Assembly: GCF_001752365.1 (NCBI RefSeq)
Contig: NZ_MEIY01000001.1
Coordinates: forward strand, 1,313,044 to 1,377,043
Reading direction: 5' to 3'
DNA length: 64,000 nt
Source of the DNA: Marinobacter sp. X15-166B
GTDB lineage: Bacteria; Pseudomonadota; Gammaproteobacteria; Pseudomonadales; Oleiphilaceae
Shown: one piece after another, positions 17,838-40,182 of the stretch
Position numbering within the stretch: position 1 is the first letter of the stretch
Layout of the letters: each line of letters begins with the position of its first letter
Notes under the pieces: generated by a model
What the model was told of the DNA's origin: nothing
What the model saw: only the letters and a program-made list of their open reading frames with translations
Databases searched by the model: none
Made by a program: the position numbers and the translations under genes

Positions 17838-19346
17838 TTAGTGGTTGGCGGCCAGCTTGTCGCTGTTCTTGCGCGCCCGTGCTTTCATCAGATTGCGAAT
17901 TTGCCCGTAAAACATGTACAGGATCATCCCCGCGATAATGACCAGCAACACCTGCGAGTATGGGCGGCTGTAGAAGGCGCTGAAATCACCGTCGGTAATG
18001 ACCAGCGCACGCCGGAAACTCTTCTCGATGATCGGCGACAACACCAGCGCCAGAATAAAGCCCGCCACGGAGTAGTCGAGTTTGCGCAGGAAAAACGCGA
18101 CCACGCCCAGCCCCAGCATCAGCCAGATATCAAAGAAGTTACCCGAGGAGGAATACACCCCCATCAGGGAGCTGGCGACGATGGCCGGCGCCAGCAGCGC
18201 GTTGGGGGTGACCAGCGCCTTGGCAAACAGGGTGGTCATGAACCGCCCCATGAAGAACATCCCAATGGTGGTGAATATGAAGCCGATGTACAGCGCGTTG
18301 ATCAGTTCCGGGTTGTTGCGGATCATCTGCGGGCCCGGGGTAATGCCGTGAATGATGAAGGCGCCGGCAATGATCGCAATGGACGCCGACCCGGGAATAC
18401 CCAATGCCAGGAACGGCAGCAAGGCCCCGCCCACCGTGGCGTTATTGGAGGCATCCGGCCCCGCAATACCTTCCGGGTTGCCCTTACCGAAGGTTTCCGG
18501 CTGTCTGGAGAGTTTCTTGACCCCGGAATAGGCCAACCAACTGGAAATCACCGAACCCACACCCGGCAGCACCCCGATGACCGAACCGATGAACGAACCG
18601 GCAAACATGGCTTTCACGGTCTGCAGCATTTCCCGGAAGGTGAGCGATGTCTTCATGTCCTTCTTTTCGAACTTGAACGACAGGTTCATGTTCTTGGTGT
18701 TCATGTTGAGTACTTCAGAGATCGCAAACAGGCCCACCACCACAGCAATCAGGTTGGGGCCTTCCAGCAGGGAGGGGCTGTCCATGGTAAAGCGCGGAAT
18801 ACCCGAGAACAGATCAATCCCCATGGTGCCGACAAACAGGCCCAGGATGACCGAGATCGCGGTCTTGGACACGTTTCCGCCCCCCAGGGTCACCACGGCA
18901 AACAACCCCAGACCGCTCAACCAGAAAATTTCCGGATCGGCCAGCTTGAGGGCAAATCGTGCCACCGGCTCGGAGAAGAAGATCAGCACCGCCCCGCCAA
19001 ACAGACCGCCAAAGGTGGACCCGTACAGGGAATAGGCCAGGGCTTTACCAGGCGACTTGTTTTCCGCCATGGGGACCCCGTCAAACATGATGGGCGCGGC
19101 CATGGCCGTACCGGGTATTTTCAGCACAATGGCCGAGATGGATCCACCGTATTCCGCGCCCTGATACACCGCCAGCAACATCAGAATCGAACTGGCCGGG
19201 TCCATACTGTAGGAAAGCGGCAACAACAAGGTAATACCGATGATCATGCCCAGCCCGGGCAGGGCCCCCAGCAGCATGCCGACAAACAAACCCAGTGCTA
19301 TGGCAAAAAAACTCGCGACAAAGTCAAAACTGGCTAGAATTTCCAT
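17838..19346 (-). CDS. tctA: tripartite tricarboxylate transporter, large permease TctA
   Basis: A 502-residue protein with about 12 membrane segments and the diagnostic GALPGLGMIIGITLLLPLSY near the N-terminus. A second copy of this half-site is visible as GVLPGVGSVISSWLAYS near residue 260, reflecting the two-fold TctA repeat. It moves a carboxylate captured by a periplasmic TctC protein, using an ion gradient. Last gene of the operon and 15 bases after tctB. It is the only TctA in the window, while at least four TctC-type binding proteins are encoded upstream. Confidence 0.93.
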   Translation of the reverse strand: MEILASFDFVASFFAIALGLFVGMLLGALPGLGMIIGITLLLPLSYSMDPASSILMLLAVYQGAEYGGSISAIVLKIPGTAMAAPIMFDGVPMAENKSPGKALAYSLYGSTFGGLFGGAVLIFFSEPVARFALKLADPEIFWLSGLGLFAVVTLGGGNVSKTAISVILGLFVGTMGIDLFSGIPRFTMDSPSLLEGPNLIAVVVGLFAISEVLNMNTKNMNLSFKFEKKDMKTSLTFREMLQTVKAMFAGSFIGSVIGVLPGVGSVISSWLAYSGVKKLSRQPETFGKGNPEGIAGPDASNNATVGGALLPFLALGIPGSASIAIIAGAFIIHGITPGPQMIRNNPELINALYIGFIFTTIGMFFMGRFMTTLFAKALVTPNALLAPAIVASSLMGVYSSSGNFFDIWLMLGLGVVAFFLRKLDYSVAGFILALVLSPIIEKSFRRALVITDGDFSAFYSRPYSQVLLVIIAGMILYMFYGQIRNLMKARARKNSDKLAANH

Positions 19347-19361
19347 CTGATCCTCGCGCCT

Positions 19362-19811
19362 CTAGACGTTTACATACATGAAGTGATTGAAGACGACATA
19401 AAAAGCCACGGAGACGATGACCGCGAACAGCGCGTTCAGCCCCAGGCTCTTTGCGTTGATGCCCACTGAGGCGCGGTAAAACGTCAGCAGCACAAACAAG
19501 AAAACCGCCAGTTGCAGGTAGAAATAACCAAACGTGGACCAGCTCCAGATGAACAGGGCCATCAGCACCACTGTGCCCGCCACCTGCCATGCCATGGGTA
19601 TGCTGAATTCGTGCACGGCTTTACTGAACAGAGACGACACCGCCCCGAGCACACAAAAGCCGATCAGCATCCAGCCAAGAATGCGCGGAAAATAGCCACT
19701 CCCCATGTCGCCACCGAAGCCCGCCGGGAGCTCATAACTTTGGTAAATGATCATGGCGCCGAGGGCCGCTAATGCAATGAAAACGGTTAGGTCGAGTATT
19801 CGGTAGTGCAT
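19362..19811 (-). CDS. tctB: tripartite tricarboxylate transporter, small permease TctB
   Basis: 149 residues with four hydrophobic helices, the normal TctB length. The GSGYFPRILGWMLIGF segment after the first helix is a typical TctB signature (G-x-x-x-FP). It partners the large permease encoded immediately downstream. Confidence 0.88.
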   Translation of the reverse strand: MHYRILDLTVFIALAALGAMIIYQSYELPAGFGGDMGSGYFPRILGWMLIGFCVLGAVSSLFSKAVHEFSIPMAWQVAGTVVLMALFIWSWSTFGYFYLQLAVFLFVLLTFYRASVGINAKSLGLNALFAVIVSVAFYVVFNHFMYVNV

Positions 19812-19940
19812 GGAAGCTCTCCGGAGTCGCTATATTCGCTACGCAACTGACTGAGTGGTTACTGTTTGATGTTAAGGCCGTGCGCCGCCGGTAAGGCGGG
19901 TAGACGGCCTACCCTGTAATATCGTTGGTGATGTCCCGGT

Positions 19941-20696
19941 TCACGCGACCTGATGTCCGCCATCCACACGGATGATCTCTCCGGTCACAAAACTGGCCGC
20001 CGACGACGCCAGATAGACCACGGCACCGGCCAGATCCTCGGGCTTGCCGACCCGTTTGAGCGGAATTTTCTCAATCAGGTGCGGAAACTTCTCGGCCACA
20101 TTGACGTCGTGGAAAGCAGTATCCACGAGGCCCGGTGACACTGCGTTGACACGGATGCCTTCTGCAGCCAGTTCTTTTGCGCAGGCGCGGGTGTAAGCCT
20201 CTACCCCCCCTTTGGCGGCGGTGTAGGCCGAGCCACCGGGTACGCCACCGCTGGCAACCACCCCGGAACTGAAGTTGACGATGTTCGCTCCTTCGCTCTG
20301 ACGCAGCATCGGCAGTACGGCCTTGGTGATCAGAAACATCGATTTCAGGTTGATATCGATGATCCGGCTCCAGGCCTCTTCGGTCATATCGTCAATTTTG
20401 GATTTCTGCGGTGAACCACCGGCGCAGTTAACCAGCACCGAAAGACGGCCGAATTTGTTCTGAATCTCACTCACCATGCGGTCCACTTGCTGGGCGTCGC
20501 TGATATCGCCCAGAACGACACAGGTCTGACGGCCCAGAGCTTCGATTTCCTTCGCCAGGCTCTCGGCTTCGTCCCGTTCATTCAGACCATGAATCACCAC
20601 ATCCGCACCCAGGCGGGCAAATTGCAAGGCTGTGGCGCGGCCGATACCCAGCGTACTGCCGGTGACCCATACAACTTTATCTTTGAAATCAAACAT
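19941..20696 (-). CDS. short-chain dehydrogenase/reductase
   Basis: About 251 residues, a classical SDR: cofactor motif TGSTLGIG (T-G-x3-G-x-G) near the N-terminus, NCAGG, the active-site serine in NFSSG and the YxxxK pair in SAYTAAKGG, and a C-terminal GEIIRVDGGHQVA. The open frame extends to 20783, but AGGAAGAG lies 5 bases before the ATG at 20696, so MFDFKDKVVW is the start. It oxidises or reduces an alcohol/ketone; the substrate is unknown. It lies in the long operon between a tctC gene and tctB. Confidence 0.88.
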   Translation of the reverse strand: MFDFKDKVVWVTGSTLGIGRATALQFARLGADVVIHGLNERDEAESLAKEIEALGRQTCVVLGDISDAQQVDRMVSEIQNKFGRLSVLVNCAGGSPQKSKIDDMTEEAWSRIIDINLKSMFLITKAVLPMLRQSEGANIVNFSSGVVASGGVPGGSAYTAAKGGVEAYTRACAKELAAEGIRVNAVSPGLVDTAFHDVNVAEKFPHLIEKIPLKRVGKPEDLAGAVVYLASSAASFVTGEIIRVDGGHQVA

Positions 20697-20760
20697 ATTT
20701 TCTCTTCCTGTTTGGGGCATCGCGGGTCGCGATCTACCCCGGTGGTGGAGATTGTGGGCA

Positions 20761-20781
20761 GCGGTTGGCCCGGCCAACCGC
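20761..20781 (-). terminator. Intercistronic hairpin between tctC-1 and the SDR gene
   Basis: Perfect 10-base arms GCGGTTGGCC / GGCCAACCGC with a one-base centre and no T-run. It probably adjusts mRNA stability or relative expression rather than ending transcription. Confidence 0.5.
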
Positions 20782-20807
20782 ACCCTTCAGTACCCGGCCG
20801 AACCGCG

Positions 20808-21773
20808 TTATTTGATCAGACCCATTTGCTTGAGCAGGCGTTTGTTGGCCGCACTGCGCTGGCGAATACCTGCTGCGAAGGTCTCACCGTCCTGGTAAAC
20901 CCGCGGCAACCCGGAGGTTTCGTAAAACCTGATCACATCAGGGTCGTCCATGGCCGCCTTGAACGCGTCGTGCAAAATGGCAACCCGGTCGGCCGGGATG
21001 CCCTTGGGCGCAAATACCCCCATGGGAAAGCTGGCGGTTACCGGCGTATCCAGACTCGAACCCACCGGGGTGTCCGCATAGTCGTCGCCCAACGGCTTGG
21101 CATCGGTCAGAAACACCAGCGGGCGAATCTCACCGCCCTGATGCAGGTTGGGCATCGCGAAGCTGCCCATCACCTGGCCACCCAGGACCGCGGCCTGGCT
21201 CGCGGCGTGCCCCTCGAACGGGATATGACGCAGCTTCAGTCCGGTTTTTTCCATGAATTGTTCCATGGCCAAATGCGCGGAACCGCCGGTAGCGCCGGAG
21301 GTGGTGAAGGTGAACTTGCCGGGATTGGCTTCCACGTACTGCTTCCATTGGGCGTAGTTTTCGAATTCCGACGAATCCAGCACGTTGATCGATGCGGGAA
21401 TGTCCAGCACGGCCAGAATCGGCTCAAAGCTGTCCGCCGTCCATCGGGTCCGCCCGTAGTGCTGCATGACCTCGATTGTCCCGCTGGGGCTCAAGCCCAG
21501 GGTGTACCCATCCGGTTTGGCGGCTGCCAGCACGCTCATGCCGATGGTGGTCGCACCGCCCGGTTTGTTGACCACCACCACCCGTTGTTCGTGGGGCAGG
21601 TATTTACCGAGCACGCGGGCAAAGGAGCGCGCAAACACGTCGGTGGTCCCACCGGCACCAAACGGGACAATCAGTTCGATGGGCCGCTGAGGAAAGTTAT
21701 CGGCTGTCGTCAGACCGGGCATTGCCGCCAACAGTGCGATAAGGGCGGCAAACAGCACGTTAATTTTCTTCAT
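20808..21773 (-). CDS. TctC-family periplasmic binding protein (copy 1)
   Basis: About 321 residues. An N-terminal signal peptide (MKKINVLFAALIALLAAMPG, cut near TTA-DN) is followed by FPQRPIELIVPFGAGGTTDVFARSFA, the ligand-pocket entrance of Bug/TctC proteins, and by VVNKPGGATTIG and AAAKPDGYTLG. The C-terminal RSAANKRLLKQMGLIK is also typical. It captures a carboxylated compound in the periplasm for the TctAB permease. The ATG at 21773 gives a clean signal peptide; a frame extension to 21785 adds four residues. It is the downstream member of a duplicated aldehyde dehydrogenase-tctC pair. Confidence 0.9.
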   Translation of the reverse strand: MKKINVLFAALIALLAAMPGLTTADNFPQRPIELIVPFGAGGTTDVFARSFARVLGKYLPHEQRVVVVNKPGGATTIGMSVLAAAKPDGYTLGLSPSGTIEVMQHYGRTRWTADSFEPILAVLDIPASINVLDSSEFENYAQWKQYVEANPGKFTFTTSGATGGSAHLAMEQFMEKTGLKLRHIPFEGHAASQAAVLGGQVMGSFAMPNLHQGGEIRPLVFLTDAKPLGDDYADTPVGSSLDTPVTASFPMGVFAPKGIPADRVAILHDAFKAAMDDPDVIRFYETSGLPRVYQDGETFAAGIRQRSAANKRLLKQMGLIK

Positions 21774-21856
21774 AAAATATTCCATTCTATCGTTACATCA
21801 ATGAGTTAAGTTAAGGTCACCGTTCTCTCTTGTTGTTGGTTCGTTGACAGACGCGC

Positions 21857-22384
21857 TCACACGCTGAACCACCAGGGTGATGGCTGGCGGGCGCGATTGC
21901 TGAGCAGCGCTCTCTTGCGGACAAAGCGTTTGATCGATTCGGCGCCGGTGCGGGAGCCGCCCAGACCGGAACACTTGAACGCCGTTTTTTCCGGCACATA
22001 GTCACCGCCACTGACGTGCGGCGCCAGACCGGCGTCGTTGATGCTGATGCCACCGGCGTGAATTCTGCGGGCGACGTCCGCCCACTGGTCAATCCAGCGG
22101 GGCGGCAAATCCACTTCCCGCTCACTTTCACGGAACCGACCGGTGTCCGCACACACCGCGGCCAGCAATTCCGGCCGTCGGGCTTTCAGCCGTTCGCCCC
22201 AGGCCTTGAGCACCCGGATCCGGCCTTCGAGCCCCATGGCGTGCCACTGGACCTGCGCGGTACGGGCGCGAGTGCAGACCGCGGTCAGTTCGTCAACGGC
22301 CGTCGGGGTGAACTGATAATCCACCGCACCGGTTCTGGGGTTGCGAACGTTCATGGCGGTGGCCGCGCCCGTTATCTGATGCAT
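21857..22384 (-). pseudogene. Internally deleted aldehyde dehydrogenase (lacks catalytic domain)
   Basis: A 175-residue open frame matching only the first ~110 and last ~70 residues of the intact aldehyde dehydrogenase at 23448-24893. The N-terminal part runs through RFRESEREVDLPPRWIDQWAD and is joined in frame at VARRIHAGG to the C-terminal NDAGLAPH...PSPWW part. About 306 residues are missing, including the PWNFP asparagine, the ELGGK glutamate and the active-site cysteine, so it cannot be an aldehyde dehydrogenase. Start codon, ribosome-binding site (GAGG) and stop are intact and the join keeps frame, so a 175-residue protein could still be made. It directly precedes tctC-1, like its parent precedes tctC-2. 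Confidence 0.85.
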
Positions 22385-22400: not shown

Positions 22401-23368
22401 TTACTGGATCAGACCCAGTTGCTTCATCAGACGTTGGTTGTCCGCACTGCGCGCACGAATGCCCTCGGCGAAGGTGGCACCGTCTTTGTAGACCTGGGGT
22501 AACCCGGAACTCTCAAACACATTGATCACCGCAGGATCGTCCATGGCCGCCTTGAACGCGTCGTGCAAAATGGCCGCCCGTTCAGCGGAGATGCCCTGGG
22601 GCGCGAACACCCCCATGGGGAAGCTGACGGTCACCGGAATACCCAGCTCCGAACCGAATGGAATGTCGTCGTAGACCTCCCCCACCGGCTTGACGTCGGT
22701 CAGAAACACCAGGGGGCGAATGTCGCCGCCCTGATGCAGATCGGGCATGGCAAAGCTGCCCATCACCTGACCACCCAACACGGCCGATTTGCCGGCCGCC
22801 GCGCCTTCAAACGGCACATGGCGCAACTCCACCCCGGTTTCTTCCATGAACCGTTCCATGGCCAGGTGGGTGGCGTTGCCGGTACCGCCGGAGCTGGTGA
22901 AGGTGAACTTGTTCGGGTTGGCGTCCACGTACGCTTTCCACTGGGCGTAGTCTGTAAACTCGGAATCATTGAACACGTTGATCGACGCGGGCACATCGAG
23001 GACCGCCAGAATCGGTTCAAAATCGTCCACCGACCAGCTGGTGCGCCCGTAATGCTGCATGATTTCCATCGTGCCACTGGGGGTAAAGCCCAGGGTGTAG
23101 CCATCCGGCTTGGCGGCTGCCAGCAGGCTCAACCCGATCGTCGCCGCGCCCCCCGGGTTTATTGACCACCACCACGCGCTGCTCGTTGGGCAGGTACTTG
23201 CCCAGCACGCGCGCAAAAGAGCGTGCAAACACGTCCGTGGTCCCCCCAGGCGCCAAACGGCACCACCAGCTCGATGGGGCGCTCAGGAAATTCTTCCGCG
23301 GTGACGAGACCGGGGATGGCCATGGTGATTACGGTCAACGCCGCAAACAGTACTTTGAATGGGTTCAT
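22401..23368 (-). pseudogene. TctC-family binding protein (copy 2) with two frameshifts
   Basis: The parts of a complete ~321-residue TctC are present but in three frames. The signal peptide and FPERPIELVVPFGA run in one frame from the ATG at 23368; GTTDVFARSFARVLGKYL to VVVVNKPGG follow in a second; AATIGLSLLAAAKPDGYT to the C-terminus in a third. The breaks are an extra base at 23248 beside a six-base C-run and an extra base in the C-run 23149-23154 (G-runs on the coding strand). It is roughly 70 percent identical to copy 1. It is either a recent pseudogene or a gene with two homopolymer sequencing errors. Confidence 0.8.
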
Positions 23369-23412
23369 GAGAACGTCTCTACCTTGTCGTTGTCCGTCAC
23401 GCAAAACGCCCC

Positions 23413-23447: not shown

Positions 23448-24893
23448 TCAGACCTTGTACCACCAGGGTGAGGGCTGCTGGGAGCGATTGGACAGCAGCG
23501 CCCGCTTGCGCACAAAACGCTTGATTGATTCGGCCCCGGTGCGGGACCCTCCCAGGCCGGAACACTTGAACGCGGTTTTCTCGGCCACGTCTTTATCGCC
23601 GATGAAGTGCGGCGCCAGACCGGCGTCGTTGATGCTGATGCCGCCGGCATCAATCCGGCGGGCCACCGCCAAGCCTTCTTCCTCGGTACCGGCAAATACA
23701 CAGGCGCTGAGGCCGTAGTCCGAGTCGTTGGCCAGGGCCACCGCTTCGTCGGCGTCTTTTACCTTCATCACCGGCATGACCGGGCCGAAGGTTTCTTCCA
23801 CCATGATGGTCATCGAGTGGTCCACACCAACGATGACCGTCGGCCGGCACCACAGACCGCCGCCCTGTTCCTCAATGTCCCCGCCGGTCAGACATTCGGC
23901 GCCTTTACCCTGGGCATCCTGCAGGTGGTTCAGAATGATGTCCGCCTGGGGCTCAAAAATCAGCGGACCAATATCGCCCTGTTTGATGTCGGGGAAATTC
24001 AGGGTGATTTTCTTGGCCTTCTCAACCAGTTTCTCCACGAACTGCTCGTACACGGATTCGACCACATAGATCCGTTCTACCGAGAAGCACTGGTGTCCGG
24101 CGCCCATGATGGAGCCGGTCAGAATGGCCGAGGTCGCGCGCTCAATATCCGCGCTGGCCAGTACGATGGCCGGGTCTTTCCCGCCCAGCTCGGTGAACAC
24201 CGGAATGAACCGCTCCGCGCCCCGTACCGCAACCTTGCGGCCGGTTTGGGTGCTGCCGGTGAAGCAAACCATATCCACCTGATCAATCAACGCAGCACCC
24301 ACATCCCCGGCACCGCGCACGTACACCAGCAGGTCTCTCAGAACCTCACACTCTTCAATGGTGGCCATCATCGGATCGATGAAGCGGGGGGTCACCTCAC
24401 TGGGCTTGATGACCACCGCACAGCCGGCAATCAACGCCGGCACCGCATCCATCAGGGACAATGCACAGGGGAAGTTCCACGGGCTGATCACCCCCAGCAG
24501 CGGGTAAGGCGAGTAGTCGTCAAACGAGGTCACCAGCGGGTTGGCCGTCTGCTGGGCTTCCGAGGCCAGCGACTGGCGCGCGGCGTCCGCCCACTGGTCA
24601 ATCCAGCGGGGTGGCAGATCCACTTCCCGCTCACTTTCGCGGAACCGACCGGTGTCCGCACACACCGCATCCAGTAATTCCTGCCGCCGGGCCTTCAAGC
24701 GTTCGCCCCAGGCCTTGAGCACCTTGATGCGACCCTCGAGACCCATGGCTTCCCACTTGACCTGCGCCTCACGGGCGCGGGAGCAGATCAAGGCCAGTTC
24801 GTCAGCCGTCGTCGGTGTGAATTTATAATCCACATCACCGGTTCTAGGGTTGCGGACCTCTAGTGTGTTCGCTGCACCTGTTCCCTGATTCAT
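23448..24893 (-). CDS. NAD(P)-dependent aldehyde dehydrogenase (intact copy)
   Basis: About 481 residues with intact catalytic residues: SPWNFP (oxyanion N near 140), FTGSTQTGR (cofactor loop), TELGGKDP (glutamate near 235) and AGHQCFSVER (cysteine near 269). It oxidises an aldehyde to an acid; the substrate is not known, but the neighbouring oxygenases generate aldehydes. An upstream ATG at 24911 lacks a ribosome-binding site; the ATG at 24893 aligns with the start of the deleted copy and has GGGG at suitable distance. It is the parent form of the duplicated pair aldehyde dehydrogenase-tctC. Confidence 0.88.
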   Translation of the reverse strand: MNQGTGAANTLEVRNPRTGDVDYKFTPTTADELALICSRAREAQVKWEAMGLEGRIKVLKAWGERLKARRQELLDAVCADTGRFRESEREVDLPPRWIDQWADAARQSLASEAQQTANPLVTSFDDYSPYPLLGVISPWNFPCALSLMDAVPALIAGCAVVIKPSEVTPRFIDPMMATIEECEVLRDLLVYVRGAGDVGAALIDQVDMVCFTGSTQTGRKVAVRGAERFIPVFTELGGKDPAIVLASADIERATSAILTGSIMGAGHQCFSVERIYVVESVYEQFVEKLVEKAKKITLNFPDIKQGDIGPLIFEPQADIILNHLQDAQGKGAECLTGGDIEEQGGGLWCRPTVIVGVDHSMTIMVEETFGPVMPVMKVKDADEAVALANDSDYGLSACVFAGTEEEGLAVARRIDAGGISINDAGLAPHFIGDKDVAEKTAFKCSGLGGSRTGAESIKRFVRKRALLSNRSQQPSPWWYKV

Positions 24894-24953
24894 ACTCCCC
24901 CCGTTGTACATGTGATTAACGTTGCTGAAACTGCGGTTGCTGATGCGGGCCGG

Positions 24954-25925
24954 TTATTTGATCAGCCCCAATTGCGTCAACAGCCTCTTGTTTTCGGCGC
25001 TGCGCTGGCGGATACCCCGGTCGAGCGCGGCGCTGTCCCGGTAGATGATCGGCAGGCCGGAAGTTTCAAAAAATGCGATTATGGCCGGGTCATCGAGGGC
25101 CTCTTTAAACGCATCGTGAATAATGTTCAGGCGCTCTTGCGGCACTCCCTTGGGGGCCAGAATGCCCATCGGAAAATCCGAGCTGAAGGGAATACCCACA
25201 TCCCGGGCGTGGGGCACATCGGTGTACACCTCACTGGTGGGCCGTGCCTCACTCAGGAACAGCAGCGGTTTGACCTCGCCGCCTTTGTGGGTGTCCGGGA
25301 TGGAGAAGACCCCCATGGTTTGCCCCCCCAGCAGCGCGGCCTGACCGGCGGCCTGACCTTCAAACGGAATGTGGCGCAGATCCACCTCGGCAATTTCCGA
25401 AAACATTTCCATCGCCAGGTGTGTGCCGCCCCCGGTACCGCCGGACGTGGAGTAGGTAAATTTGCCGGGATTGGCTTGGACAAATTCCAGCCACTGCTCG
25501 TAGTTTTGCAGCTCGGACGAGGCAAGCACATTGATGGCTACCGGGATTTCCAGAAACGACATCACCGGTTCAAAGTCGTCCAGGGTCCAGGTGGTGCGGC
25601 CCTTGTAATGGGGCATGACTTCGATCACCCCGACGGGCGCGAAGGCCAGGGTGTAGCCGTCCGGTTTGGCGGCCGCCACTATGCTCATACCAATGGTGGT
25701 GGCCCCACCGGGCTTGTTGACAACCACCACCCGTTGCTCGTTCGGGAGGTACTTGTTGATCACACGGGCAAACGAGCGCGCAAACACGTCGGTGGTGCCG
25801 CCGGCACCAAATGGCACGACTAATTCAATGGGTCGTTCGGGAAAGCTGTCGGCTTGTACAAGCCCGGAAAAAACTGAGGTTACGGACAGTAGAACAGCGA
25901 ATACAGTGTTTTTTATGTTCATCAT
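24954..25925 (-). CDS. TctC-family periplasmic binding protein (copy 3)
   Basis: 323 residues with a signal peptide (MMNIKNTVFAVLLSVTSVFS, cut after QA), then FPERPIELVVPFGAGGTTDVFARSFA, the conserved TctC pocket entrance, VVNKPGGATTIG, and the C-terminal RSAENKRLLTQLGLIK. Two adjacent ATG codons (25925, 25922) are possible starts. It is probably one of several alternative binding proteins feeding the single TctAB permease encoded downstream. More divergent from copies 1 and 2 than they are from each other. Confidence 0.9.
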   Translation of the reverse strand: MMNIKNTVFAVLLSVTSVFSGLVQADSFPERPIELVVPFGAGGTTDVFARSFARVINKYLPNEQRVVVVNKPGGATTIGMSIVAAAKPDGYTLAFAPVGVIEVMPHYKGRTTWTLDDFEPVMSFLEIPVAINVLASSELQNYEQWLEFVQANPGKFTYSTSGGTGGGTHLAMEMFSEIAEVDLRHIPFEGQAAGQAALLGGQTMGVFSIPDTHKGGEVKPLLFLSEARPTSEVYTDVPHARDVGIPFSSDFPMGILAPKGVPQERLNIIHDAFKEALDDPAIIAFFETSGLPIIYRDSAALDRGIRQRSAENKRLLTQLGLIK

Positions 25926-26018: not shown

Positions 26019-26981
26019 CTAGATCAGCCCCAGCTGCTCGAGCAGCCGCTTGTTCTTGGCACTGCGCTCGCGCATGCCCTCGCCCAGGGTTTCTCCGTCC
26101 TTGTAGGTCCGCGGCAAGCCGGCGGTGTCAAAGAACTTGACCACTTCCGGATCATCCATGGCCGCTTTGAACGCGTCGTGGATAATCTTCAAGCGCTCGG
26201 GAGGTACACCCTGCGGGGCCAGAATGGCCATCGGGAAACTGGCCGTCACCGGGACACCCGCCTCAGTGGCGGTCGGTATATCTTGGTAGACCTCACTGAG
26301 CGGTCTGGCTTCGGTCAGAAACACCAGCGGCCGAATCTCGCCGCCTTTATGAATGTCGGGGATCGAGAAGGTGCCCATCACCTGGCCACCCAGCAGCGCA
26401 GACTGGGCTGCGGCTTGTCCCTCGAACGGAATATGGCGAACCGCCAGTTCGGACACTTCCGAAAAGTACTCCATCGCCAGATGGGTCGACGCCCCCGTTC
26501 CGCCGGAAGTGGCGTAGGTGAACTGGTTGGGATTTGCACTGGCAAATTCTTTGAACTGCTCGAAGTCCTTGATGTCGGAATCCTTCCGAACATTGATCGA
26601 GGCGGGAATCTCCAGAAACGACATCACCGGTTCGAAGTCGTCCAGCGACCAGCGGGTGCGGCCATAATGGGGCATGACTTCCAGCGTGCCGCTGGGTGTG
26701 AACGCCAGGGTGTAGCCGTCTGCTTTGGACGCCGCCACCAGACTCATGCCGATGGTGGCGGCACCGCCGGGTTTGTTCACCACCACGACCCGTTGTTCGT
26801 TGGGCAGATATTTGCTGATCACCCGTGAGAAGGAACGAGCAAACACATCGGTGGTGCCACCTGCTCCATAGGGTACAACCAGTTCAATGGGCCGTTTGGG
26901 GAAGTCCTCGGCAACCGCCCAACCGGGCAGTGCGCACGCGGCCGCAAGAATGATCGAGAGTATGGTCTGTGTTGTTTTCAT
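26019..26981 (-). CDS. TctC-family periplasmic binding protein (copy 4)
   Basis: 320 residues; signal peptide MKTTQTILSIILAAACALPG cut near AVA-ED, then FPKRPIELVVPYGAGGTTDVFARSFS, VVNKPGGAATIG and the C-terminal RSAKNKRLLEQLGLI. The first tctC copy in the transcript, immediately after the alpha/beta hydrolase genes. The presence of four related binding proteins with one permease pair suggests a transporter with interchangeable receptors. Confidence 0.9.
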   Translation of the reverse strand: MKTTQTILSIILAAACALPGWAVAEDFPKRPIELVVPYGAGGTTDVFARSFSRVISKYLPNEQRVVVVNKPGGAATIGMSLVAASKADGYTLAFTPSGTLEVMPHYGRTRWSLDDFEPVMSFLEIPASINVRKDSDIKDFEQFKEFASANPNQFTYATSGGTGASTHLAMEYFSEVSELAVRHIPFEGQAAAQSALLGGQVMGTFSIPDIHKGGEIRPLVFLTEARPLSEVYQDIPTATEAGVPVTASFPMAILAPQGVPPERLKIIHDAFKAAMDDPEVVKFFDTAGLPRTYKDGETLGEGMRERSAKNKRLLEQLGLI

Positions 26982-30286: not shown

Positions 30287-30355
30287 TGTCAAACCTTTTT
30301 GTTATTTCGACTTAACTAAACGACGTTCACCACAGGGGTGGTCAGCGTGTACCGA

Positions 30356-30679: not shown

Positions 30680-30951
30680 ACTCTCTGCTCTTTGTTGTTC
30701 GCTTATTGATCAGGCCAGAGGTTTGGTACATTTATTTTTATATATAACTCTTTTTCTATATAGAGGCATTCTCGCCGCGATGTCAACCCCTTTCAATCGG
30801 GGAGTTTCTGCATTACTTTGGCTCCAGAGCGGGCGCCCCGGCGCAGACCATCAGACCGCTCCAGGCACGCTGCAGGTTGCTAATTTTTTCAGTCCGAGCT
30901 CTACAGGCAACATCGACAGAGAGCGTTTTTTGCACAGGTACGGGGGTTCCG

Positions 30952-31931: not shown

Positions 31932-33446
<1,515 letters not shown>

Positions 33447-33571
33447 GGTGGTCCTTCCTGCCAAAATAAAATGTAGAACCCCAGTCTAGAAGTTGCGGCG
33501 GCTAAAACAATATCGCTACACTGAACGAACTGTTTAGTATTTTGAACAATCAATCGGGAATCTTGTGAAAT

Positions 33572-34549
33572 ATGGAAGCGCAAACCAGGCACCGCCTGTG
33601 GACTCACCTGCACTGGTTGACGGTCCTGGCAGAACAGGGCACCTACACCGCGGCGGCCAGCCGTCTGGGGGTCAGCAAAGCCTCCATGAGCCAGCACATC
33701 ACCGAACTTGAGCGCCTTGCGGGTTTGCCTCTGGTACAACGCACCACCCGCAGCGTCCGGCTGACCGAAGCGGGGCAGCAACTGGTGGACGGCATTAAAA
33801 TGCCGTTCGACCAGATTTTCAGCCACTTTGCCCGGGTCAGTGATCTGGCCGATGAGCCGAGCGGAAAACTCCGGGTGACCGCACCGGTCGCCTTTGCCCG
33901 ACAGCAGTTGCTGACCCCGATTGCCGATTTTCTGGCCACCTATCCGGGGGTGCGCATCGAACTGGATCTGTCTGACCGTCTGAGTTCACTGGCCATGGAG
34001 GGGTTCGATCTGGCCATCCGCCACACCCACGCTCCGCCCGACACTCACGTGGCCTGGTTGCTCAGCCACACCCGGTCCGTGTTGGTAGCCAGCCCCAGCT
34101 ATCTGGAGCGCAGCGCCCCGCTGACACACCCCAACGAGCTGAGCCGTCATGCCTGCCTGCACTATCCCCGGCCCGGCGGTGATACGGTGTGGCATTTCGT
34201 GCAAACCAACCAAGACGCGGGTTCTCGGGCGGACCCCCTCACCGTGCCGGTTTCGGGCCCCTTCTCGGCGAACAACAGCGAGGCGCTGCGAGACGCCGCA
34301 GGCGCGGGGCTGGGGTTGGCGGTGATACCGGATTTCAGTGCCCAACGGGCGCTGGCGACCGGCGCCTTGACGGAGGTGCTGCCAGAATGGAAGCCGGTGG
34401 AGTCTTTCGCAGAACAGCTATACGCCATCCGCCCTTACGCCGCCCACGTCCCCCGGGCGGTCGGTTTGCTGGTGCAGTTCCTGCGCACCCGGTTCGCCAG
34501 CGGATTCAGCCACGCACCGGCGGAACGCGCCGCCGAGTCAGTTACGTAA
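33572..34549 (+). CDS. LysR-family transcriptional regulator
   Basis: 325 residues. N-terminal helix-turn-helix LTVLAEQGTYTAAASRLGVSKASMSQHITELERL and an effector-binding domain from about residue 95 (GKLRVTAPVAFARQQL). The pattern resembles the DsdC/AaeR-like LysR group that acts on neighbouring dehydrogenase or efflux genes. Divergent from mmsA (gap of about 125 bases) and overlapping the convergent MFS gene by 12 bases, so mmsA is the likely target. Confidence 0.88.
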   Translation: MEAQTRHRLWTHLHWLTVLAEQGTYTAAASRLGVSKASMSQHITELERLAGLPLVQRTTRSVRLTEAGQQLVDGIKMPFDQIFSHFARVSDLADEPSGKLRVTAPVAFARQQLLTPIADFLATYPGVRIELDLSDRLSSLAMEGFDLAIRHTHAPPDTHVAWLLSHTRSVLVASPSYLERSAPLTHPNELSRHACLHYPRPGGDTVWHFVQTNQDAGSRADPLTVPVSGPFSANNSEALRDAAGAGLGLAVIPDFSAQRALATGALTEVLPEWKPVESFAEQLYAIRPYAAHVPRAVGLLVQFLRTRFASGFSHAPAERAAESVT

Positions 34550-35989
34550 CCGCGACACCGGCAGCAACATGGCGATGAGCGCCACCGCCATAAACAGCCA
34601 GGCGATGCTGAATTCCGACAGGGGCAGCAGTTGGGCCGACACCCCCTCGGTTTTGGTGATGAGCAGCGCAATGATATTGATCCCGTAGGCGCCGCCCACC
34701 TGACGGACAAAGCTGATGGTGGCGGAGCCATCACTGAGTTCGTCCGGGCTGAGCTGGTTCAACGCCCCGGTGGATACGGAGGGCAGCAACAACCCCATGC
34801 CCAACCGGCTGACCACCGCACAGGTGGCCAGATACACAAAGCTGGTCCCCACCGCGCTCTGGGAAAAAAACAGCGCCGACACCACCACCAGCACCATACC
34901 CGCAAGCAACAGGTTGCGGGAGAGCATGATGTCGGTGAGCCGGCTGCCCAGTAACAGGGTGGCGCCGAGCACCACCCCGGCCGGTAACATCAGCAGGCCG
35001 GCATCCGTCGGGGTGTACGCAAGAGCGGTCTGAGAAAATACCGGTATCAGGTAGGTGGTCCCGTACATCGTAAGCCCCAGTCCCAGGGCGCCACAACTGG
35101 CGTATAGAAACTGCCGGCGGAACAGCAGGGCCAGATTGAGCAACGGATGCGCCACCCACCGTTCGTAGACCACAAACGCCACCAGACTGACCAGTGACAA
35201 ACCCAGCAGGATAATGCTGCGGGCCGTCCAAAGCGGGTGGTATTGCAGGTCATTCAGCATATACAGACTGATAACCAGCACCGCCGACAAGAGCGCACAT
35301 CCCACAAAATCAAACCGGTAGCGTTGCTCGCGAGGGCCTTTGACCGGCAGAAAATACCAAGCGAGCACGGCCGCCATCAAGGTCACCGGCACCGGGGCGT
35401 AAAACACGTAGCGCCAGCTGAAATAATCAACCAGAAACCCACCGATGACCGGTCCCAGCGCCGGCGCCAGGACAATGCCAAAGCCGTAAAACCCCAGCAC
35501 GGTGCCCCGCTGCTGGGGCGGAAACACCCGGAACACCAGAAATATCGACATGGGTTGCATCAGCCCCGCGAGCGCGCCCAGCACCAGCCGCGACACCAAC
35601 AGCTGCCCGGTATGCTGACTGAGCCCGCCGACCACAGAGGCCACGGAAAACAACAGCACGGAGATGAGGGTCGCACGACGGATACCCACGTGGTCCAGCA
35701 CCCAGGTGGCGCACAACATGGAGACGGTCATGGCGGCCAGGTAGCCGGTCGCCAGCCAGTGAACTTCCCCCTGGCTCAGGTTGAAAGTCACCATGATGTC
35801 GGCCAGCGCCACATTGATCGAAGTCGCGCTGAGGACCGTAGCCATGGTCGTGACCATCACGGTAAGCAGGGCATACCAGCGCCAGCGACTGCCATAGCGA
35901 TGTTGCAGCGCCGCAACGCTGTATCTGCTCACAGCACTGCCGGAGACTGGCGGTTTCACTGCGGGGCGGTTATCCATATTTTCACACAC
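34538..35989 (-). CDS. DHA2-family (EmrB/QacA-type) MFS multidrug exporter
   Basis: 483 residues with about 14 transmembrane segments. Signatures are visible: MVTTMATVLSATSINVALADIM (helix 1, D-x2-I-V-N-V-like), VHWLATGYLAAMTVSMLCATW in helix 2, RVFPPQQRGTVLGFYGFGIVLAPALGPVIGGFLVDYFSW (antiporter motif C). It exports lipophilic compounds against a proton gradient. Divergent from the padR gene; PadR-family proteins commonly control adjacent exporters, so it probably protects the cell from aromatic substrates. Confidence 0.88.
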   Translation of the reverse strand: MCENMDNRPAVKPPVSGSAVSRYSVAALQHRYGSRWRWYALLTVMVTTMATVLSATSINVALADIMVTFNLSQGEVHWLATGYLAAMTVSMLCATWVLDHVGIRRATLISVLLFSVASVVGGLSQHTGQLLVSRLVLGALAGLMQPMSIFLVFRVFPPQQRGTVLGFYGFGIVLAPALGPVIGGFLVDYFSWRYVFYAPVPVTLMAAVLAWYFLPVKGPREQRYRFDFVGCALLSAVLVISLYMLNDLQYHPLWTARSIILLGLSLVSLVAFVVYERWVAHPLLNLALLFRRQFLYASCGALGLGLTMYGTTYLIPVFSQTALAYTPTDAGLLMLPAGVVLGATLLLGSRLTDIMLSRNLLLAGMVLVVVSALFFSQSAVGTSFVYLATCAVVSRLGMGLLLPSVSTGALNQLSPDELSDGSATISFVRQVGGAYGINIIALLITKTEGVSAQLLPLSEFSIAWLFMAVALIAMLLPVSRLRN

Positions 35990-36016
35990 GCCTGTTTTGA
36001 CGCTATTTCTAGCGAT

Positions 36017-36132: not shown

Positions 36133-36714
36133 ATGATCTTCAATACAACAACCTATCTGGTCTTGGGTATTCTGCTGCGCGAGCCCCGTTCCGGGTACGA
36201 TATCGTCAAGGAGCTGGCTTCGTTCAGACCGGCAAAATCCAGTCAGATCTATCCGATTCTCAGCAAGCTCGAGAAAAATGGTTACGCCAGCAGCAGTCAG
36301 GTGTTACAGACCGGCAGACCCAATAAAAAAGTCTATTCGGTGACCTCCAGCGGCAAGGAAAAGCTGAAAAAATGGCTGGACACCTCTCCGGAACCTCCCG
36401 TGATCCGCGACGACTTCCTGTCGATGATTTTCTCCGTGTGGATTAAAGAGCCGGAAACCCTCGAACGGCTGGTGCTGCAGCGGCTGGATTACCTGACCGA
36501 ACGGCTGCAATACTTCACTGACCGCCAACAGACCCTGGAAACCGCCTTTCCCAGCGAAATCCGCAATTTTTACAGCTGGCACCACAGCAATTACCTGCTG
36601 ACCCGGCGGCGCATTGCCGTCACCAAAGAAGACATCAAATGGTGCAAGGAGGTTCTGGAAGAGCCCGCCATTGCCTGGAAACGCGCTCAGGCAGAACCAC
36701 CCTCTCCGGTTTGA
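36133..36714 (+). CDS. PadR-family transcriptional regulator
   Basis: 193 residues. The N-terminal winged helix TYLVLGILLREPRSGYDIVKELA and SSQIYPILSKLEKNGYASSS matches PadR, followed by RPNKKVYSVTSSGKEKLKKWL for the wing and a C-terminal helical PadR_C dimerisation region (about residues 90-180). The prototype PadR represses a phenolic-acid decarboxylase and releases DNA on phenolate binding. Here it is divergent from a DHA2 exporter and sits midway between the two oxygenase genes. Its TAGGTA-containing upstream repeats recur in the oxygenase-2 and long-operon promoters. Confidence 0.88.
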   Translation: MIFNTTTYLVLGILLREPRSGYDIVKELASFRPAKSSQIYPILSKLEKNGYASSSQVLQTGRPNKKVYSVTSSGKEKLKKWLDTSPEPPVIRDDFLSMIFSVWIKEPETLERLVLQRLDYLTERLQYFTDRQQTLETAFPSEIRNFYSWHHSNYLLTRRRIAVTKEDIKWCKEVLEEPAIAWKRAQAEPPSPV

Positions 36715-36897: not shown

Positions 36898-36924
36898 AAG
36901 AGAAGACAACAATTCAGCGTCGGC

Positions 36925-38091
36925 TCAGAAGAAGTACTGGAGCGAACCCTGCAGGCGGGTGGCATCGCCCTTCCTGCCGCTCACGGTTTCGCGGGTGTGA
37001 TGGGCGACCTCTACACCGTAACGGATCCGCTTGACCGGGCTCCAGATGTAGTTCAGGTACACGCTGGTCTGCACTTCGTCGGTGCTGTCAGCCGACATCA
37101 CGCCGGCCGCAACCGCATCGTCGACGTCGTTTTCAAGCCGGTTATAGCCGAGGTTGATCGCACCCGGGCCCACCTGCTGACTGATGCTGGTTTTGAAGCC
37201 GGTCGCGGTAATGGTTTCCAGGCTCTGGGTGGCCGGATCGTAGTAAGTGGGCTGGTGGAAGTTGAAATAAATCGCCTTGCCGATGCCGTCTCCGTGGGTC
37301 ACCCCAGCGCGCACCGTGGTCCCGGTGCCGGGGAAGTTGTAGGCGGCCTGCACCAGCGCGCCCCAGCCAAAGGCACTCTCGTCGTTGTTGGTGGACGCAT
37401 CGTAGTACACCAGCTTGCGGGCGATACCGGCGACCACGTAACGCAGATTGTCGGTCCTGCCGTTGTAGGCCGCGGTCAAGTTGGGCAGATCGCTTTTAGA
37501 GTCGTCCCCTGCGGCGTCAAGTGGTGTACCCCCACCGGCCACTTCCGGGTCTTCCAGCGACACCGAAAACTTGTCCATGGTGTACCGGATTTGCGGCACC
37601 CGGCCGTTGGGGCCACCCGCCTGGCCGTAGAAATCCAGGGTGGGCATGTACGCGTTTTCCGGACCGAAGTTGGAGGTGGTCTGACCGGCCAGCAGGCCGT
37701 TCCAGGACGCGTAGGCGTGGCGCAGGCGCAGTTTCTGCGAGCTGGTTTCTTTACCCAGGGCATCGCCGTAGAAATCGAACTCAATCACCGTGGTCAGCGG
37801 GCCACCGTGAGCCATGGGGGTGGTGGTTTTGGTGCCGATCCGGCTCTGGTTGGCGTGAAAATTGAGGTGGCCGTCGGAGCCGTCAACCCCGTCGTAACGG
37901 ATGTTGGAGCGGAGAACCGCGGGGCCCAGATAGGCGTCCACGTCGTAGGTCGCGTCCAGTTTGACGTACCCGTACAGATCAACTTTAGTGTCTCCTACTT
38001 CCCAGCTTACCGCGTGGGCAGCACCCGACAACATCAGCGCAACCGAATACGCAGATACTCCCAGTACGAGACGATTCTTATTAATACGCAT
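36925..38091 (-). CDS. DcaP-like trimeric outer-membrane porin
   Basis: About 388 residues: signal peptide ending SGAAHA-VS, then a beta-strand-rich barrel with alternating hydrophobic residues, DLYGYVKLDATYDVDAYLG near the N-terminus and a C-terminal QGSLQYFF ending in phenylalanine as required for BamA recognition. DcaP-type porins take up dicarboxylates and aromatic acids in Acinetobacter and relatives. The ATG at 38091 lies 8 bases after AGAAGG; the one at 38097 is too close. Placed between padR and oxygenase 2, it would admit the pathway substrate through the outer membrane (inference). Confidence 0.85.
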   Translation of the reverse strand: MRINKNRLVLGVSAYSVALMLSGAAHAVSWEVGDTKVDLYGYVKLDATYDVDAYLGPAVLRSNIRYDGVDGSDGHLNFHANQSRIGTKTTTPMAHGGPLTTVIEFDFYGDALGKETSSQKLRLRHAYASWNGLLAGQTTSNFGPENAYMPTLDFYGQAGGPNGRVPQIRYTMDKFSVSLEDPEVAGGGTPLDAAGDDSKSDLPNLTAAYNGRTDNLRYVVAGIARKLVYYDASTNNDESAFGWGALVQAAYNFPGTGTTVRAGVTHGDGIGKAIYFNFHQPTYYDPATQSLETITATGFKTSISQQVGPGAINLGYNRLENDVDDAVAAGVMSADSTDEVQTSVYLNYIWSPVKRIRYGVEVAHHTRETVSGRKGDATRLQGSLQYFF

Positions 38092-38282
38092 TTGCATAAC
38101 CTTCTGATTTGTTTTTTTACTGAGCCACCATGACAGCGACAGCGCCGTTCATCTGACCGATCCGGTATTTCTGCCAGCCTGTTCATCGAAGCCCGGGTGC
38201 TTCAGCCCCGGACTGATGCTGTGTCTGAATGCAGATAGTCACTTGAATCTCTCCGCCAGATTGGATCTAGGATAGGAAAATT

Positions 38283-38296
38283 TTGACACATGTCAA
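38283..38296. promoter_or_regulatory. Dyad upstream of the porin gene
   Basis: TTGACA-CA-TGTCAA inverted repeat in an otherwise non-coding stretch (38092-38505) between the divergent porin and oxygenase-2 genes. The left arm also reads as a -35 hexamer. No other feature is evident in that stretch. Confidence 0.4.
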
Positions 38297-38505
38297 CAAT
38301 TTTGCGGTCGGACCGTTTACGCGCAGAAGTTCTTCAAATTCAGTCTTGATTGTTTCTAGCTTATTTTCAGCAAGTTACATACTGATAGACTGGACAGGCG
38401 CAGAAAAATGCCGGATAGATCTAATGGTTCTATATAAAGAGCCACCATCCGCAGTCCAGCACCGATACTGAATGCTGGCAGGCTACCCCGCACCATGTGT
38501 AATTA

Positions 38506-38534
38506 TTGACATAGGTAGTCATTAGTACTAAGTT
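38506..38534 (+). promoter_or_regulatory. Promoter of oxygenase copy 2
   Basis: -35 TTGACA (38506-38511), 17-base spacer starting TAGGTAGT, -10 TAAGTT (38529-38534). Nearly identical to the promoter at 28650-28678 on the other strand, so the two transcription units should share a regulator. The predicted leader before the ATG at 38695 is about 155 bases. Confidence 0.75.
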
Positions 38535-38694
38535 TGAATTTCGATGGCAGACGCGCAGCCTTTACCTCTATGGGGGGCTGTCAGTGTCGTGGAATCTGTT
38601 GGACGTCATTCGGTACGTGGGAACTCCGTAACGACCGGGTGTGTGAGAGGTGACCAACCTCCGGGTGAATTCATACTGAGCACGAGGCGAAACA

Positions 38695-40182
38695 ATGATA
38701 AAGCTTGAAAATGAGATCAAAATTACCATACGGGAAGATAACCAGAACCCGTTCCTGCGTGACCATTTTACCTCGGTCGGTAAGGAGTACACGGCCACCA
38801 CGGACAGTCTCAAGGTCATCGGTGAAATTCCCAAAGATCTGCACGGTATCTACGTGCGTAACGGCCACAACCAGGTGCACGAGCCGCTGGGGGTTTACCA
38901 CAGCTTCGACGGCGACGGCATGCTGCACGCGGTGCATTTCGAGAACGGCAAGGCCGAATACCGTAACCGTTTTGTGCGCACCACCGGCTTTTTGGCCGAA
39001 CAGGGTGCCGGAAAATCCCTGTGGCCGGGCATGCTCGAACCCCACCTGGGCAGCCGCCGCGGTTGGGGCAGCATCGGTGCGATGAAAGACAACGCCGGTA
39101 CCGATGTGATCTGCCACGCCGGCAAACTGATTGCCACCATGTCGCAGTGCAGTGAACTGAACCAGCTGGACCCGCGGACCCTCGATCCGGCCGAGCCGGA
39201 CCACTGGAACCTGAAAATTGCCCAGGACGGCGGTATCTGCTCTCACTACAAGGTAGACAACGACACCGGCGAACTGATGTTCTTCAACTTCAGTGAGCGC
39301 CCCCCGTACATGCATTACGGGGTGCTGGACAGCAACAGCAACCTGAAGCATTACGTACCGATTGAACTGCCGGGTATTCGCTGGCCCCACGATTTGGGGG
39401 TCACCAAGAACTACTCCATCTTGCACGACCTGCCGTTTATTTTTGATCCGGAACTGCTGGCCAAGGGTGAGCGCAAAGTCACCTTCTTCGACGACATGCC
39501 GGCGCGCTTTGGCATCATCCCGCGCCACGGTACCAACGAGGACGTGAAGTGGTTTGAAGCCACCCCCTGCTTCATTTTGCACCTGTCCAACTGCTACGAG
39601 AAAGGCGATGAAGTCATCATGGAAGGCTGCATCACCACCAACCCGCGCAAGCCGGCGGTCGGTAAGCAGGACCACGACGCCATCCAGAAGATGGTCAATC
39701 AGTTCGACAAGTCCGCGACCCGCTACCGCATGCATCGCTGGGCCTTCAACATGAAAACCGGCAAAACCAGAGAAGAGTATCTGGACGACGAGGTCACCGA
39801 ATTTCCGACCGTGAACAACGAATACGTCGGCAAGCCCTACCGTTACAGCTACAACGCCCTGTTTGGCGACAAGCCCTGGTGGCTGAAGGGTTTGAAGAAG
39901 TTCGACCTGCTGTCCAACACCACCCAACGCTACGAGTTCGGTGAAGGCCGGTGCGGCAGTGAAGCCCATGTGGCGCTGCGTGAAGGTGCGGTTGACGAGG
40001 ACGACGGCTACGTAATCACGCTGGTGACCGACATGATCGAGGACCAGTCCGAGTGCGTGATTCTGGACGCCAAGGACATCAGCCGCGGCCCGATCGCGCG
40101 GATTATCCTGCCCCACCGGATCCCGATTGGCGCCCACGCCTGCTGGGTGGAAGGTGACCGCATCGACGGTGAGCGGGTGTAA
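38695..40182 (+). CDS. carotenoid/lignostilbene oxygenase family (RPE65-like) protein, copy 2
   Basis: 495 residues with the four iron-ligand histidines near H184, H232, H296 and H481, all in the same contexts as copy 1 (CSHYKVD, WPHDLGV, FILHLSN, IGAHACW). It cleaves a conjugated C=C bond with O2; natural substrates in the family include carotenoids, stilbenes and isoeugenol. It is arranged as an inverted repeat of copy 1, 8.4 kb apart. Differences cluster near the C-terminus (EDQSE, ISRGPIARIILPHRIP) and residues 380-430. Transcribed alone between a shared-type promoter and a strong terminator. Confidence 0.92.
   Translation: MIKLENEIKITIREDNQNPFLRDHFTSVGKEYTATTDSLKVIGEIPKDLHGIYVRNGHNQVHEPLGVYHSFDGDGMLHAVHFENGKAEYRNRFVRTTGFLAEQGAGKSLWPGMLEPHLGSRRGWGSIGAMKDNAGTDVICHAGKLIATMSQCSELNQLDPRTLDPAEPDHWNLKIAQDGGICSHYKVDNDTGELMFFNFSERPPYMHYGVLDSNSNLKHYVPIELPGIRWPHDLGVTKNYSILHDLPFIFDPELLAKGERKVTFFDDMPARFGIIPRHGTNEDVKWFEATPCFILHLSNCYEKGDEVIMEGCITTNPRKPAVGKQDHDAIQKMVNQFDKSATRYRMHRWAFNMKTGKTREEYLDDEVTEFPTVNNEYVGKPYRYSYNALFGDKPWWLKGLKKFDLLSNTTQRYEFGEGRCGSEAHVALREGAVDEDDGYVITLVTDMIEDQSECVILDAKDISRGPIARIILPHRIPIGAHACWVEGDRIDGERV

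Follow-up and report, generated by a model that had tools for sequence, protein, structure and literature searches.

Described systems and the proposed pathway

Lignostilbene dioxygenases (LsdA, LSD4 and NOV1) and PinU, of the pathways for beta-1, beta-5 and beta-beta dimers, combine an RPE65 fold and a four-His iron site with a catabolic setting and several paralogues per genome. In all these respects they are similar to two carotenoid-cleavage-type oxygenases (CCO 1 and CCO 2) encoded in a gene cluster of Marinobacter sp. X15-166B, which lies in a stretch of 64,000 nucleotides (C1:1313044-1377043) of the 3.49 Mb genome; this whole stretch is hereafter the window. Different from LsdA, LSD4, NOV1 and PinU, however, the window CCOs lack the residues equivalent to Tyr101 and Lys134, possess Gln instead of the Glu that follows Lys134 and are linked to uptake by a tripartite tricarboxylate transporter (TTT) and to alpha/beta hydrolases (ABHs). 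Plant CCD1 (carotenoid 9,10-dioxygenase) and the 13,14-cleaving apocarotenoid dioxygenases of the NCBIfam model NF052295 have the same fold and gave the closest sequence scores (229 and 246 bits, respectively), but the latter is far below the model's cut-off of 675 bits, and the window cluster is of a catabolic type with an importer. TTT systems for aromatic and other acids, such as those of the terephthalate-binding protein and the Bug proteins, also comprise TctABC with several TctC genes beside catabolic genes, whereas the window TTT adjoins an oxygenase of a putatively alkene-cleaving type. Among the matches listed in searches of the mostly open literature (carotenoid oxygenase or lignostilbene with TTT), no publication joined such oxygenases with TTT uptake. 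This agrees with an earlier interpretation made from the letters of the window (the sequence-only reading), in which the combination was not recognised from a described pathway.

Our results suggest that the window contains a probably acquired cluster whose core, consisting of CCO, ABH and a TctC-fed TTT, may function in uptake of an alkenyl carboxylic acid, cleavage of its C=C bond and hydrolysis or oxidation of the pieces, a proposal whose chances of being correct we judge to be about even. The cluster is real, recurrent and, as far as the literature was searched, uncharacterised, while its chemistry is predicted from the protein families. The sequence-only reading had placed together two RPE65-type oxygenases, three ABHs, an aldehyde dehydrogenase (ALDH), a short-chain dehydrogenase/reductase (SDR), an mmsA, a DcaP porin, a TctC-rich importer, an exporter and a PadR regulator. 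Pfam and NCBIfam scans confirmed all of them, at the coordinates given here for the core and the accompanying oxidoreductases and below for the others.

28799-30292, minus strand: CCO 1, RPE65-family non-heme iron oxygenase (PF03055 409 bits, cut-off 27; the ATG two codons into the ORF is the probable start)
38695-40182, plus strand: CCO 2, RPE65-family oxygenase (PF03055 411 bits, cut-off 27; iron ligands H184, H232, H296 and H481)
27892-28587, minus strand: ABH2, adjoining CCO 1 (PF12697 74 bits; counterpart of at least 38% identity in 18/82 related loci)
27037-27822, minus strand: ABH1 (PF12697 95 bits; counterpart of at least 38% identity in 44/82 related loci)
30877-31848, plus strand: third ABH, S15-like (PF02129 67 bits; counterpart of at least 38% identity in 6/82 loci)
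26019-26981, minus strand: TctC 1, solute-binding protein (PF03401 147 bits)
24954-25925, minus strand: TctC 2, solute-binding protein (PF03401 145 bits)
22401-23228, minus strand: TctC 3 (PF03401 109 bits; full span about 22404-23377 in three frames by tblastn)
20808-21785, minus strand: TctC 4, solute-binding protein (PF03401 124 bits)
19362-19811, minus strand: TctB, small TTT membrane subunit (by place and clustering)
17838-19346, minus strand: TctA, large TTT membrane subunit (PF01970 422 bits)
23448-24911, minus strand: ALDH, succinic-semialdehyde-dehydrogenase-like (PF00171 378 bits; PRK09407 387 bits, below the cut-off of 521)
21857-22384, minus strand: second ALDH, 175 residues left, the middle missing in frame (PF00171 positions 7-113 of 461)
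19941-20783, minus strand: SDR oxidoreductase, FabG-like (PF13561 222 bits)

The TTT set of the window is complete, with TctA, four TctC copies and a TctB assigned only by clustering and place. The TctB open reading frame (ORF) clusters with a small gene beside TctA in 5 other loci, and its matches beside TctA were 32% (L047) and 35% (L032) identical.

In the proposed pathway, a small alkenyl carboxylic acid would enter via a porin and the TTT, the CCO would cut its C=C bond with O2 at the four-histidine iron to give carbonyl pieces, and one or two ABHs would hydrolyse the pieces. The ALDH and SDR would carry out the first oxidations in the window cluster, and a P450 with its own ferredoxin and reductase may prepare or trim the substrate. 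Later steps in betaproteobacterial relatives would run via ALDH, acyl-CoA ligase or CoA-transferase, and thiolase, and Bacillota relatives possess a BKACE enzyme. A beta-keto-acid intermediate would be compatible with BKACE as well as with thiolase after CoA activation. The direction of transport, the enzyme chemistry and the order of these steps are likewise predictions. Because the CCO is coupled to a TTT, the substrate should be charged. Our weak guess is a degraded isoprenoid acid of the apocarotenoid or norisoprenoid type rather than a 4-hydroxystilbene; the sequence ranking would favour isoprenoid-type acids, and there is little evidence for any one substrate.

The oxygenase subfamily

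Both window CCOs belong to the CCO (RPE65) superfamily, with PF03055 scores far over the curated cut-off. The four His iron ligands of CCO 2 were aligned in CCO 1, and the CCO fold was recovered in a predicted structure. PMC8191317 describes the iron site as remarkably conserved across all characterised carotenoid cleavage dioxygenases (CCDs), and three acidic residues of CCOs as hydrogen-bonded to the His ligands. In this study, residues were counted in 85 aligned rows (63 of type A and 22 of type B, with seven outgroup or long-branch rows excluded) and in 152 database proteins. Three of the four His were invariant in the relatives, and position 184 was His in 138/152. This first iron His was replaced by Glu in 6/85 rows and 14/152 database proteins. 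The six Glu184 CCOs of the alignment (L067:9998-11482, L068, L069, L070, L083 and L091) are all marine, keep the other three His and come from SAR92, Porticoccaceae, Halieaceae and one unplaced Gammaproteobacterium. E369 and E423, which we take to be two of the His-bonding acids, were present in 85/85 rows, and the putative third acid site aligned with Gln151, also in 85/85. E154 could substitute for the missing third acid.

The residues given for lignostilbene dioxygenases in PMC8191317 are Phe59, Tyr101 and Lys134. The site of Phe59 was F in 140/152 proteins. The site of Tyr101 was L, I, M or V and that of Lys134 was S (G in two) in 85/85 rows; neither was ever Tyr or Lys, respectively, in the 85 rows or the 152 proteins. 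Moreover, the NCBIfam lignostilbene equivalog models scored 228/220 and 171/170 bits, far below their cut-offs of 800 and 650. Stilbene, a substrate considered in the sequence-only reading, is thus not supported, as the phenol-binding residues of lignostilbene dioxygenases were absent from 85/85 rows.

The same results bear on a lignostilbene or phenylpropene pathway, in which the CCOs would cleave a 4-hydroxyaryl alkene to vanillin-like aldehydes destined for beta-ketoadipate genes at the left of the cluster. The shared fold, iron site and catabolic setting are consistent with such a pathway, but the residues and model scores make it unlikely. A review implicates no transporters for lignin-type dimers (PMC12997858), whereas the window CCO family is tied to TctC. 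The left-hand genes had been read as catIJ-pcaF, of which pcaF is a firm model match (700 bits), while its two CoA-transferase neighbours were far below the pcaI and pcaJ cut-offs (30/128.5 and 43/243.55 bits, respectively). Their suggested part in the system found no support either: none of the related loci matched the catIJ-like genes, and pcaF was matched at 64% identity in L071 and at no more than 43% elsewhere. We commit to the window CCOs being an uncharacterised CCO subfamily within an alkenyl-acid catabolic module.

Recurrence of the oxygenase, hydrolase and TctC genes

A scan through a single genome of each species yielded 100 relatives; retaining the 80 best of them left 79 distinct loci, in which weaker relatives are under-represented. 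ORFs were called, clustered and mapped, and the label of each cluster family rests on one scanned member. The map missed the TctC, TctB and TctA of L047, so that its counts can be too low. L093 had no clustered CCO ORF and was excluded from the proximity and thinning counts, leaving 78 loci. Within 3 kb of the CCO, ABH was found in 60/78 loci, TctC in 51/78 and both in 42/78. The internal control consisted of those ORFs of these loci that lay over 5 kb away from the CCO (near, n=478; far, n=352). ABH accounted for 86/478 near vs 7/352 far ORFs (p=5e-15), TctC for 56/478 vs 14/352 (p=7e-5) and thiolase for 18/478 vs 2/352 (p=0.002), and the differences for acyl-CoA ligase (12 vs 13), ABC ATPase (10 vs 12) and NMO (13 vs 4) were not significant. 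As loci share descent, they were also thinned to CCO identities below 80%. Of the 42 loci left, 33 had ABH, 24 TctC and 20 both; ABH remained enriched (p=1.5e-7), and thiolase, ALDH and SDR were not significant. The association of CCO, ABH and TctC exceeds chance. Co-occurrence of the gene set in other genomes had been set beforehand as the check on the sequence-only reading, which was not refuted, as CCO, ABH and TctC passed it. Overall, that reading is partly supported.

No counterpart of mmsA, the major facilitator superfamily (MFS) gene, LysR or DcaP (38% identity over 55% length) was found in 82 loci. Membership of mmsA and MFS in the system is not supported, including the role once given to mmsA in feeding central metabolism, and for all four genes an association beyond chance is not shown. 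These four genes would fit a coincidental grouping of unrelated catabolic genes within a gene-rich island, as would the abundance of TctC in many hosts and the lack of ALDH and SDR enrichment described below. For the core of CCO, ABH and TctC, however, the ABH enrichment before and after thinning and the near-complete repetition of the gene set in L047 largely refute this explanation, which we regard as extremely unlikely.

The linked oxygenase, hydrolase and TTT genes do recur elsewhere. L047, from the metagenome-assembled genome (MAG) RHODO2, contains nearly the whole set in 10 kb: ABH2 (50% identity), PadR (43%), ALDH (54%), SDR (52%), TctC (44-50%), TctB (32%), TctA (58%), a second PadR (34%), CCO (62%) and ABH1 (60%). 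Thus, seven further window gene kinds (PadR, ALDH, SDR, TctC, TctA, ABH1 and ABH2) are found there at identities of at least 38%. L017, from a Halieaceae MAG, has six (PadR, P450, TctC, TctA, ABH1 and ABH2): PadR is 55% identical, ABH2 49%, TctA 65%, TctC 47-49%, ABH1 70% and an incomplete P450 gene 51%, and its CCO is 78% identical to CCO 1. The core recurs together in Proteobacteria and Bacillota, and some Bacillota loci also contain BKACE (five loci), a Cpn60-like gene (six loci), IclR regulators or an amidohydrolase. The Cpn60-type chaperonins, identified by a scan in one locus and by clustering in the other five, lie near CCO and TTT genes (L019:269-1891, L020, L021, L023, L033 and L057), as would be expected if the oxygenase required a dedicated chaperone.

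In plasmid records, the best CCO places were 61.5% and 61.2% identical (Cupriavidus basilensis and Polaromonas, respectively). C. basilensis pRK1-2 has two adjacent CCO operons, the first with thiolase, regulator, NMO, acyl-CoA ligase, ABH, CCO and porin, and the second with MarR, ABH, ABH, TctC, CCO, porin, MFS and ALDH. The operon of C. necator NH9 pENH92 is similar to the first, with SDR, ALDH, MFS and TctC nearby. Across 21 genomes (that of L093 and 20 from which type B rows came), there were 1 to 6 CCO places each (E 1e-60), some cut by contig ends, and two or more in 20/21. Because both types occur together in several genomes, an order of two CCOs, type A followed by type B, had been considered; these counts imply more than two types and support no such order. 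In stretches from five multi-CCO genomes, two CCOs were accompanied by thiolase, NMO and acyl-CoA ligase in 5/5, by TctC in 4/5 and by ABH in 3/5; scans further identified ALDH in two stretches and a lipocalin-like gene in one. The gene for the lipocalin-like protein (PF13924, L102:12839-13477) is flanked by NMO and ALDH within a CCO operon of a betaproteobacterium. CCO genes were also numerous in a Comamonadaceae MAG, with three divergent CCOs in 10 kb together with ABH, TctC, NMO and thiolase (L039:6567-15962), and in Sporosarcina sp. P13, where at least 7 CCO genes (L018, L021, L022, L024, L025, L057 and L086) make up an unusual expansion.

TctC matches were counted genome-wide in 17 genomes or records. 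The counts were 10 in the genome of the window, 12 in that of L032, 9 in that of L047, 8 in Sporosarcina P13, 4 on the C. basilensis plasmid, 2 each in Neobacillus citreus and Ureibacillus manganicus, and 1 each in the Halieaceae MAG and Sporosarcina P32b. The four window TctC genes and one by a third CCO lie near CCOs, and these five are taken as being among the genome's 10. In each of the four genomes with one or two TctC, a TctC lies no more than 3 kb from a CCO. This argues against the CCOs processing carotenoids or apocarotenoids for signalling or detoxification, with TctC and hydrolases as bystanders. Plant CCD1 was the best sequence match of the CCO, as such a role would predict; to our knowledge, however, carotenoids are not imported by TTTs, and we find the role very improbable.

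Several results weigh against the pathway proposed here. Gln151 aligns with the Glu following Lys134 in LsdA and is found in 85/85 rows; therefore, ordinary CCO chemistry is not to be assumed, and the literature searched reports no activity for any member of the subfamily. In fold rankings of the structure model (VIA-align), lignostilbene dioxygenases stood above CCD1, which would disfavour the isoprenoid guess. ALDH and SDR, which the pathway needs, were not enriched near the CCO (7/478 vs 4/352 and 15/478 vs 11/352, respectively), and the TctC enrichment dropped to p=0.013 after thinning. Moreover, none of the 7 Actinomycetota loci had a TctC match (five had an ABH match and two had none), so that the hydrolase occurs there without TctC. 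TctC is also very common in eight genomes, in each of which 84 TctC were scored of 101-422 candidates. Finally, TctC 1 (26019-26981) matched several PDB chains, including Bug proteins, with 4x9t, 2dvz and the terephthalate-binding 8hkb at similar scores; thus, its ligand is not readable.

Some of these points would suit a repurposed CCO fold, for example for oxidative cleavage of an enolised beta-dicarbonyl or as an isomerohydrolase; the hydrolases would use the same dicarbonyl or ester as substrate. The invariant Gln in place of Glu next to the Lys134 site, the naturally occurring Glu for the first His ligand in 14/152 relatives, the hydrolase as the most constant CCO partner and the BKACE or thiolase of relatives all point in this direction. 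Against it, three iron ligands are invariant and the fourth is His in 138/152, E369 and E423 (taken as two of the His-bonding acids) are in 85/85 rows, and the ALDH of some relatives fits aldehyde products; on balance we doubt it.

Returning to alkenyl-acid catabolism, we tentatively extend the proposal, with less than even confidence, to an undescribed pathway spread horizontally over Proteobacteria, Bacillota and Actinomycetota. In it, the iron site of a separate CCO subfamily would be rewired, with an outer-sphere Gln and, in a marine branch, Glu for the first iron His. These enzymes might degrade a common alkenyl carboxylate, imported by a TTT in hosts that have one, and in freshwater Comamonadaceae several CCOs might act one after another. 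If so, it would add a transporter-coupled alkene-cleavage route to bacterial carbon cycling and a defined gene set for an orphan substrate in lakes, soils and sea. It would also provide natural iron-site variants (Glu to Gln and His to Glu) at a site called remarkably conserved in PMC8191317.

Origin, possible gene decay and neighbouring genes

The CCO was absent from 36/36 same-genus genomes and present in 6/58 genomes of that search, including its own; the other five were no more than 45% identical. Because the CCO is missing from these 36 congeners, it was probably acquired, and the plain reading is that the cluster was likely gained horizontally. In a tree of 92 rows (quick method, SH-aLRT; one short row, the L055 fragment, omitted), the window CCOs and the third copy were clustered in a 13-row clade (100) with the Halieaceae MAG and nine Bacillota rows. 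Two further Bacillota rows (L033 and L086) were outside this clade, and type B formed a separate clade of 22 rows (99). In the 36 congeners, the window TctA had no match above 38% identity and the neighbouring ABC ATPase none at 1e-100 (among the best 56 or fewer of up to 131 candidates per genome); the flank comparison, limited to these two genes, did not locate the insertion borders.

The identities among the genome's three CCOs were 79-87%, with 87% between CCO 1 and CCO 2. Among the four window TctC genes, pairwise identities were 58-74%, and they shared 53-60% identity with the TctC gene next to the third CCO (L099). That TctC is linkable to the system; the other L099 genes (aldo/keto reductase, SLT, SRAP, methyltransferase, cytochrome bd subunit and ABC) were considered as members and look unrelated. 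In its N-terminal 107 residues, the ALDH remnant matched the full ALDH at 79% identity, and an in-frame ALDH C-terminus follows. A TctC-like relic of 30 residues lies just upstream of CCO 1 (30539-30628, minus strand; 50% identity, E 6e-4). The frame changes of TctC 3 adjoin G runs. Elsewhere in the window, glyS (60355-62429), whose named matches were mostly from Marinobacter (81-85% identity), in keeping with a genome of this genus or one near it, is broken into two frames near 60650. Because glyS is normally essential, the assembly may have indel errors, which casts doubt on the broken TctC at 22401-23377; its three-frame state reflects either genuine decay or indels of the assembly.

Leftward from CCO 1 on the minus strand, the genes are CCO 1, ABH2, ABH1, TctC, TctC, ALDH, TctC (three frames), the ALDH remnant, TctC, SDR, TctB, TctA, P450, ferredoxin, MarR and ferredoxin reductase. 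To the right are the third ABH (plus), mmsA (minus), LysR (plus), MFS (minus), PadR (plus), DcaP (minus) and CCO 2 (plus), with a metallophosphatase and then ABC genes beyond. The remaining features are as follows.

16374-17633, minus strand: cytochrome P450 (PF00067 104 bits; nearest solved chains 5xjn and 5gwe)
16056-16370, minus strand: ferredoxin, [2Fe-2S]-type, 104 residues (CGGSMACATC motif read from sequence)
15424-16014, minus strand: MarR-family regulator (PF12802 44 bits)
14190-15467, minus strand: ferredoxin reductase (PF07992 205 bits, PF14759 72 bits)
31932-33464, minus strand: mmsA-type dehydrogenase (TIGR01722 684 bits, cut-off 448.5)
34538-35989, minus strand: DHA2-type MFS exporter (TIGR00711 263 bits)
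36133-36714, plus strand: PadR-family regulator (PF03551 57 bits; counterpart of at least 38% identity in 3/82 loci)
36925-38097, minus strand: DcaP-type outer-membrane porin (PF19577 75 bits)

The PadR operator motif ATGT-N8-ACAT had 0 matches in the window vs 0.67 expected. The DcaP porin is a plausible entry route, and genes annotated as porin adjoin CCOs in Cupriavidus. The P450, ferredoxin, MarR and reductase set (14190-17633), just left of the genes named in the sequence-only reading, probably belongs to the cluster. We assume the ferredoxin to be of the [2Fe-2S] type from its CGGSMACATC motif. The solved chains nearest to the P450 (5gwe, 5xjn, 6gii and others) are, we presume, of the CREJ/CYP116 type, those next after 5xjn and 5gwe being presumably CYP116B; the window P450 has its own separate ferredoxin and reductase. 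Counterparts of the P450 are found at the CCO loci L017 (51% identity) and L055 (72%), and in the latter, from an Alcaligenaceae MAG, MarR and the reductase were also 49% and 53% identical, respectively.

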